From contig NZ_CP095482.1 of assembly GCF_023028225.1 (NCBI RefSeq), forward strand, positions 2,232,001-2,296,000: DNA of 64,000 nucleotides, in the 5' to 3' direction. The notes beneath the pieces are model-generated. The model was not told where the DNA came from. It was given only the letters and a program-made list of their open reading frames with translations, and made no database searches. Below, piece by piece: positions 35,820 to 36,946 of the stretch. The translations under genes and the position numbers were made by a program. Source of the DNA: Halorientalis litorea. GTDB taxonomy: Archaea; Halobacteriota; Halobacteria; Halobacteriales; Haloarculaceae. Numbering within the stretch: position 1 is the first letter of the stretch; every line of letters begins with the position of its first letter.

Positions 35820-36560
35820 ATGGATACGGGCGCGTGGGTCAGTCTCTTCTCCGGCGGCAAAGACTCCTCGTGGGCACTCTACCGGGCACTCGAAACAGGA
35901 CTGTCCGTCGAGCGGCTGGTGACGGTCCACCCCGAGGGTGACTCCTACATGTACCACGTCCCGGCGACCGACCTCGCGTCGCTAGCCGCCGAGAGCATCG
36001 GCATTCCGCTCGTGGATGTCAACCCCGACGACTTCGGAGCCGACGACGTGGCCGACGCCGGCGCGCAGGGCGACGACGAACTCGAACCGCTCGAAATCGC
36101 GCTCAGTGACCTCGCGACGGAGTTGGGCGACGGGGCGAACGGGGCCGATGGCGGTATCGCGGGCCTCGTCGCCGGGGCCGTAGAGAGCGAGTACCAGACT
36201 TCCCGCATCGAGGGGATGGCCGACCGTCTCGACGCCGAGTTGTTCGCCCCGCTTTGGCAGGAAGACCCCCGCGAACTCGCCGACGCGATGCTCGACGCCG
36301 GGTTCGAGATTCGCATCGTCCAAGTCGCGGCCTACGGTCTCGACGAGTCCTGGCTCGGACGCACGCTCGACGCCGACGCGCTGGCCGACCTCGAAGCCGT
36401 ACACGAGGAGTACGGCGTCCACATCCTCGGAGAAGGTGGCGAGTTCGAGACGCTGGTGACCGACGCCCCGCACATGGACCGCCCGATTCGGCTGGACGCC
36501 GAACCGGTGTGGGAGGGCGACCGCGGCCATCTCGACATCACGGACGCGTGGTTGGCGTAG
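35820..36560 (+). CDS. Diphthine-ammonia ligase-type ATP pyrophosphatase (Dph6/DUF71)
   Basis: A 246-aa protein with the PP-loop SGGKDSS (11-17) of adenine-nucleotide alpha hydrolases, then YHVPATDLASLAAESIGIP, AGAVESEYQTSRIEGMADRL and ILGEGGEFETLVTDAPHM. These are typical of archaeal DUF71 proteins, which act in the last amidation step of diphthamide on elongation factor 2. A TATA-like atttag is about 27 bp upstream. The 3' end is odd: its final 48 bp are repeated twice more downstream in a 163-bp tandem structure, and the third copy encodes a slightly different ending (WLD instead of WLA). Confidence 0.88.
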   Translation: MDTGAWVSLFSGGKDSSWALYRALETGLSVERLVTVHPEGDSYMYHVPATDLASLAAESIGIPLVDVNPDDFGADDVADAGAQGDDELEPLEIALSDLATELGDGANGADGGIAGLVAGAVESEYQTSRIEGMADRLDAELFAPLWQEDPRELADAMLDAGFEIRIVQVAAYGLDESWLGRTLDADALADLEAVHEEYGVHILGEGGEFETLVTDAPHMDRPIRLDAEPVWEGDRGHLDITDAWLA

Positions 36561-36886
36561 CATCCGAGGAACGGAGTGAGTCGGTTCACCGCACGAGCGA
36601 AGCGAGTGCGGCCTTTTCGCCCACGTTTTTGCGGGAGCGGTTCGCGCGTTACGCGAACCCGGACGCAAAAAGGTGGAGGGCAACTGCGGCCATCTCGACA
36701 TCACGGACGCGTGGTTGGCGTAGCATCCGAGGAACGGAGTGAGTCGGTTCACCGCACGAGCGAAGCGAGTGCGGCCTTTTCGCCCACGTTTTTGCGGGAG
36801 CGGTTCGCGCGTTACGCGAACCCGGACGCAAAAAGGTGGAGGGCGACCGCGGACACCTCGACATCACGGACGCGTGGCTCGACTAG
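36513..36886. repeat. 163-bp tandem element duplicating the dph6-like gene tail
   Basis: Two full 163-bp units (36513-36675 and 36676-36838) are followed by a partial third tail copy (36839-36886). Each unit has 48 bp of gene tail ending in TAG and 115 bp of element. The element contains a ccgcac/gtgcgg stem and a nested hairpin: outer arms cacgtttttgcg/cgcaaaaaggtg (36622-36633, 36664-36675; one mismatch) around ggttcgcg/cgcgaacc (36639-36646, 36652-36659). The first and third tails differ at six bases, five of them silent and one codon changed (A to D). The second tail has two replacement changes. This fits recombination with an allele carrying the element, followed by tandem amplification. 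It accounts for most of the 386-bp gap to the thioredoxin gene. Confidence 0.85.
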
Positions 36887-36946
36887 CCCGTCGGCGCGCG
36901 AGCAGTGCTGCCGTGTGCTTTTAGCCATGCAGGGCGTATTCTCGCT

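Follow-up and report, generated by a model that had tools for sequence, protein, structure and literature searches.

Haloarchaeal hairpin elements located at gene 3′ ends and flanked by duplicated gene tails

A family of non-coding elements, each composed of three hairpins and bearing T tracts, was found at the 3′-ends of haloarchaeal genes, where in part of the copies the tail of the host gene is present twice, once as the coding end before the element and once behind it. Our search returned no earlier description of such a family. We see an even chance that the element spreads by homologous recombination in which the duplicated tail acts as its attachment site.

RESULTS

Two tandem tail–element units follow dph6

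The window (the whole 64,000-nucleotide stretch of Halorientalis litorea DNA that was analysed) contains a dph6 gene, whose ORF scored 250.6 bits against TIGR03679 (cutoff 197.3, E=9e-75). The original prediction was that two 163-bp units, each made up of the dph6 tail and a hairpin element, are followed by a third tail, and this was confirmed at 36512-36887 (Table 1). The units form a direct repeat (36512-36674 and 36675-36837) with 161/163 identical positions (99%, two differences), and the region downstream of the third tail runs to a thioredoxin-like gene. As predicted, the mode of insertion preserves the gene end, since the first tail leaves the gene intact. The AG of its stop overlaps the left-end motif of the element, AGCATCCG, which is adjoined on its 3′ side by hairpin a (CCGAGG..CGG), followed by CGGTTCACC, hairpin b (GCACGAGCGAAGCGAGTGC), the T tracts TTTTCGCCCACGTTTTT, the terminal hairpin (genome 2268610-2268677 in element copy 1) and the right end CAAAAAGGTGG. 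The palindromic character proposed for the 115-bp insert was borne out by folding, which was significantly better than that of shuffled sequences both as RNA (z -2.8) and as DNA (z -3.8).

Table 1. Features of the dph6 locus, in window positions
Feature	Position	Strand	Remarks
Host gene dph6 (diphthine--ammonia ligase)	35820..36560	+	NCBIfam TIGR03679, Pfam PF01902; 3′ end is tail copy 1
Tail copy 1	36512..36560	+	Coding 3′ end of dph6, 49 bp, stop TAG
Element copy 1	36561..36675	+	115 bp, three hairpins, T tracts
Tail copy 2	36675..36723	+	Non-coding, two replacement-type changes, immediately 3′ of GGTGG
Element copy 2	36724..36838	+	No differences from element copy 1
Tail copy 3	36838..36886 (or 36887)	+	dph6 allele, ~49-50 bp, 88% identity

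Tails 1 and 3 had been said to differ by five silent changes and one A/D codon. The mostly silent character and the A/D codon were found again, but the count is four silent nucleotides (GGC/GGA, CAT/CAC, TTG/CTC) and one replacement codon changed at two bases (GCG/GAC, A to D). The replacement changes expected in the middle tail were also present, both of its differences from tail 1 being of this type (GAC to AAC, D to N; CGC to TGC, R to C). Halorientalis salina and H. persicus belong to the same genus as the window, judged by dph6 similarity; the dph6 genes of the genus relatives are only 78-82% identical to that of the window, which is too distant to tell its native tail.

The element belongs to a structured family of one archaeal order

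BLAST of the 115-bp element against its own genome gave more than a dozen clear additional matches. With a covariance model of the terminal hairpin (R1), which scored element copy 1 at 75.7 bits, about 35 copies with E below 1e-4 were detected in this 3.2-Mb genome, weaker rows being partly the same copies read from the opposite strand. The model was then applied to 295 genomes of the phylum, 53 of them from the same order, with at most 17 candidates scored per genome. Matches occurred in 45/53 same-order genomes, often with E below 1e-10 and, among the matches listed, in many copies, while outside the order only weak matches (E ~1e-4 or more) were obtained in the 295 genomes. The family is thus multi-copy, three-hairpin and, in the 295 genomes sampled, confined to the order beyond noise.

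The predicted structure was examined for covariation in 89 distinct sequences from other genomes. Because the alignment had been fitted to the model, sliding the pairing partners was the relevant control. The 17-pair structure gave 161 double-changed cells (alignment A2) compared with a mean of 52.8 after shuffling and 10-22 in the slid versions. The outer CCA/TGG stem is paired in 89/89 sequences, and sliding the pairing partners of the structure abolished the covariation signal. An Rfam scan found no match to the element, the best hit having an E of 0.07, far under the gathering score. A relative of the element lies on a plasmid of Halomicrobium urmianum (NZ_CP084091.1 364240-364368; 77% over 72% of the query). 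A match to the T-tract pattern in viral contigs (L300) was rejected as an unrelated chance match in AT-rich sequence.

The family occupies gene 3′ ends and duplicates gene tails

In the original prediction the element was tied to the end of dph6, and a search for relatives after haloarchaeal stop codons was proposed. Such relatives do exist, in multiple copies and at gene 3′-ends; the dph6 tails are real, but tail duplication is a habit of the whole dispersed haloarchaeal family and not specific to dph6. Duplication was scored when a direct repeat was present whose right copy started <=12 nt from the GGTGG end and whose left copy ended just left of the hairpins. By this measure, 46/141 element copies had a duplicated tail, versus 6/835 when they were paired with the right flanks of other loci, where orthologous genes, dph6 among them, should give rise to a few matches. 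The duplicate comprises the last 28-225 bp of the preceding gene up to its stop and starts 0-12 nt after the conserved AAAAAGGTGG end. The right junction contains 1-9 filler bases, the left copy mostly terminates at the stop +-8 nt, and the homology between the tails runs out within a few bases of the stop codon. In the duplication-bearing copies, microhomology at the right junction was in general not found, and no common core sequence was shared by the junctions.

The same arrangement was present in the window's genome behind at least six other genes, among them that of a DHHA1-domain protein, which is followed by two tandem units. Nine loci had closely spaced tandem units, eight of them beyond the window (periods 142-256 bp) and seven in other genomes. 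As most copies at other loci consist of a single unit, tandem amplification is a side event: the sequence of insertion and tandem duplication suggested earlier was right in that the tandem units are real, but they do not belong to the mode of insertion. Screening the first 400 kb of the genome and the window for duplicated tails yielded nothing above the control, since few elements lie there and the simple gene caller kept an antisense ORF over dph6; it was replaced by the element-centred analysis described here.

Behind a DHHA1-domain gene (L137, G000:C1:1685304-1685518), the coding tail ends 13 codons before the end of the native tail, which was left downstream, and the 59 bp preceding the differing ends of the two tails are identical. 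In most genus relatives the C-terminus is the longer one; in one relative (G295), an element comes immediately after the stop.

The copies without detected duplication also showed a preference for gene ends. In 27/94 of them the stop of a convergent gene lies 0-5 nt from the GGTGG end, forming a sharp peak, and no other measured stop lies closer to this end than 61 nt. A number of tRNA genes also terminate 0-2 nt from it. In the duplication-bearing copies, the gene stop was located mostly 19-36 nt left of the model start, which is the foot of hairpin b. T tracts stand directly behind the stops on both strands, TTTTTN8TTTTT toward the left gene and CACCTTTTT 0-5 nt behind the 27/94 convergent stops, and this placement after a gene end on either strand makes it plausible that the element serves as a two-way transcription terminator. 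The idea that the left end AGCATCCG always supplies the stop codon was dropped, as this is true of only some copies.

Two further arrangements were recorded. In L131, L142, L179, L180 and L235, the CACC end of the element lies within 0-2 nt of the 3′-ends of tRNA-Arg or tRNA-Pro genes, and extra copies of tRNA 3′ halves occur beyond the far side of the element in L131 and L179/L205. In L151, the two flanks of the element carry copies of a 33-bp stretch resembling a gene start and not a gene end.

dph6 has been targeted repeatedly

Tail duplication was scored in 11/112 dph6 loci examined, the 11 including two pairs that are the same organism in two collections. One junction, GGTGGTTCTGAGAC, is common to Natronococcus, Natrinema, Halosimplex, a Natrialbaceae MAG and two further genomes; the hairpins between the tails differ among these carriers, and tail 2 is still coding-like in each host. 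At least four other dph6 junctions with different start points were found (the window, H. salina, Haloarchaeobius and Haloarcula pellucida). The varied start points show that several independent junction events took place in one gene, while the presence of one junction across families, together with the coding-like tail 2, agrees more readily with repeated transfer than with prolonged vertical inheritance. Natronococcus sp. A-GB7 shows serial insertion, with a second, partial remnant and the end of a third tail. In Halosimplex aquaticum, the element directly following tail 2 is of the sister-species type and differs from the one that follows tail 1.

Two loci have unusual reading frames. In H. 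salina (L031 3700-3760), tail 1 of dph6 reads GCG CAG GCATCCGGTGAGTGA, the stop beside the AGCATCCG motif apparently having mutated so that the protein reads into the element. The first dph6 tail of the Natrialbaceae MAG (L048 3640-3720) has an in-frame TAG about 50 bp before the usual stop, which may be a sequencing error or indicate a broken gene at this element-bearing locus.

Empty sites and divergence between the tails

Loci with and without the element could be compared, as envisaged originally, in four dph6 cases, where the post-stop position is empty in a sister species. In these, the sequence that follows tail 2 in the carrier comes straight after the stop of the sister species (L060/L053 94/101; L102/L065 105/121; L075/L095 126/133; L031/L036 125/147), and the sequence that follows tail 1, that is, the element, has no counterpart there. 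These empty sites indicate that the tail and the element were inserted together.

The gene could be read in 32 tail pairs, whose differences comprised 104 silent changes and 28 replacements, with 100/132 at the third base of a codon. Silent changes would make up about 23% in a non-coding copy undergoing decay, versus the 104/132 seen, and such coding-like differences point to tails that are alleles from different lineages. The recombination with an element-bearing allele that had been predicted for dph6 is supported by this silent-dominated pattern in many genes and genera as well as by the empty sites. The divergent origin of the tails holds for the pairs with silent differences (84-92% identical, with mostly silent changes), but recent pairs can be completely identical, or identical except for the last codons. 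L149 (61/61) and L144 (45/45) are fully identical, and L241 matches at 43/43 positions. In L199, L208, L241 and the window the tails are (nearly) identical save the last codons and both stop at the same length. The latter pattern is expected if the donor allele gave the last codons, the stop and the element and the remainder is the recipient's. The recent pairs also suggest that the duplication can arise from the recipient's own sequence.

DISCUSSION

If the element spreads by recombination, the inserting unit would be the host gene end with its stop and the element, and the recipient's own gene end would stay behind as a second, untranslated tail. The unit would move between element-bearing and element-free alleles by the general homologous recombination of the host, presumably in cells that are mating or carry many genome copies, since haloarchaea show both polyploidy and mating through cell fusion (PMC10085750, PMC5496957). 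With the gene body as left arm and tail 2 as right arm, the duplicated tail would work as an integrase-free attachment site, and recombination between the two tails, the reverse reaction, would remove the element and leave no scar. The fixed right end at the hairpin base, the random entry point, the filler and the lack of microhomology suggest a break or a stalled fork at the hairpin base, followed by re-entry at a random upstream point, as the origin of the first joining of a tail to the right end of the element, which is our guess. The recombination reading accounts for the silent differences, the preserved gene ends, the empty sites, the junction found across species and the identical stretches with foreign last codons. 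More tentatively, and with somewhat less than even confidence, we propose an integrase-free, gene-specific mobile element, for which the duplicate tail would be a portable homology arm in general recombination between species, with the gene kept intact and scarless removal possible.

Several observations speak against recombination. If the right crossover fell anywhere in tail 2, a mosaic gradient would be expected along the tails, and overall none was seen, the positions of the differences being flat. The identical pairs (L149, L144) fit a target-site duplication equally well. The tail phylogeny, based on about 110 bp and too short to establish origin, fails in some cases to show clearly a native tail 2 and a foreign tail 1. 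Among elements with the common dph6 junction, the inner hairpins are not always the most similar, and the sample of one genome per species contained no within-species pair of empty and filled sites.

The main rival is transposition with a long target-site duplication of variable length, which we hold to be doubtful but worth keeping in view. Here, a transposase would make staggered nicks 28-225 bp apart, one of them near the stop, the element would be inserted between them, and a later allele exchange would replace the coding copy and bring in the silent differences. The dispersed, multi-copy family fits this well, and so do the identical tail pairs (L241 included) and the combination of a fixed right end, a variable start point, few filler bases and no microhomology at the right junction. 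However, random target duplication does not give a second breakpoint anchored at the stop (+-8 nt) in tails that often differ in their last codons yet have the same stop position. Moreover, the silent-dominated differences would require an extra exchange in most old copies, and no associated gene was found. We know of no transposase that makes variable target duplications of 28-225 bp.

The right end fixed at the hairpin base, the random re-entry and the filler of 1-9 nt are also expected if a replication fork stalled or broke at the hairpin and switched template, resuming upstream in the gene on an element-free chromosome. Re-entry on the same chromosome would then produce the tandem units found at about nine places, and differences spread flat along the tails agree with it too. 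But each junction would be a separate non-homologous event, so the identical dph6 junction GGTGGTTCTGAGAC in several families requires one event followed by spread, and why the element is scattered over many genes is left unexplained; we regard this explanation as unlikely. It is very improbable that a terminator-ended transcript, broken upstream at random, was copied to DNA and recombined into the gene: the unit does resemble a transcript 3′-end, with a random 5′-end in the gene and a fixed 3′-end at a terminator-like hairpin, but the T tracts should stop the transcript before the terminal hairpin is complete, and the element can also lie beside stops in the reverse orientation. A remnant of classical integrative elements, for which gene 3′-ends are the attachment sites of a tyrosine integrase, has in its favour that duplication of gene and tRNA 3′-ends is their hallmark and that some copies of the present element abut tRNA 3′-ends exactly, yet units of 130-350 bp without an integrase-sized ORF, in dozens of copies at unrelated genes and with no common junction core, make it scarcely credible. 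Tandem repeats are prone to mis-assembly, but an artefact, against which the original prediction had warned, is practically negligible, as the two units differ at two bases, tandems recur at eight other loci and the same architecture is present in many genomes, complete ones included.

Short dispersed palindromes are mostly dismissed as inert debris, and the movement of repeats that lack a transposase is poorly understood. The present element is structured, shows covariation and is carried by an entire archaeal order, and its insertions leave a clear scar that can be read, the second copy of the gene end, in which silent changes record the source lineage; the route of spread can consequently be tested on sequenced genomes and in a host amenable to experiments. 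The tail copies would also be a record of between-species recombination at single genes, and the arrangement offers a likely explanation for how new terminators can be added behind genes without damage.

Integrase-driven elements that duplicate gene 3′-ends are well established, as are phages and integrative elements residing in gene 3′-ends, for example phage 21 and e14 in icd, or those integrated in tRNA genes. The likeness to phage 21 or e14 is close, for in both cases the element restores the gene end with its own silent-variant copy and displaces the original end downstream, and here, too, the 3′-end is duplicated and the gene intact. Unlike these systems, the present one has no integrase and no ORF, a unit of only 130-350 bp, dozens of host genes and no shared core, the 115-bp element having no room for an integrase and the junctions no sequence in common. 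An integrase may act on it in trans, which is compatible with the observations. The attC sites of integron cassettes fold as single strands into hairpins with conserved mismatches. They resemble the element in having such a hairpin directly behind a stop and in forming tandem units, but the units described here have no complete ORF, integrase or attC core, and the comparison, made through the Rfam scan, gave no match.

Bacterial palindromes of the REP, ERIC, RUP and SPRITE types, the last being an intergenic palindrome named in PMC10969869, are likewise dispersed intergenic hairpins, some terminator-like and often located behind genes. They differ from the haloarchaeal family in sequence and in host domain. 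To our knowledge, no gene-tail duplication accompanies palindromes of these types. The nearest counterparts within haloarchaea are the PATEs, SMRs and MITEs of Haloquadratum walsbyi, known repeats that, like the present element, are short, non-coding, palindrome-rich, multi-copy and devoid of a transposase gene (PMC3119063). PATEs and SMRs cause no target duplication, MITEs only the one typical of their transposon, SMRs target other mobile elements, and for none of the three is a position right at stop codons, or a second copy of 28-225 bp from a gene end, described (PMC3119063). The element has palindromes of its own, and its duplications, found in 46 of the 141 copies, set it apart from PATE and other IS605-derived elements, which are marked by near-terminal palindromes similar to those of IS605-type transposons. 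The variable length of these duplications, which end at the stop codon, distinguishes it from MITEs, which have terminal inverted repeats related to a transposon and short fixed duplications. The openly accessible literature yielded no description of short non-coding hairpins that duplicate gene tails at dozens of unrelated genes. The element is best seen as a kind of non-autonomous palindromic element, and there is a real chance that its mode of movement is new.
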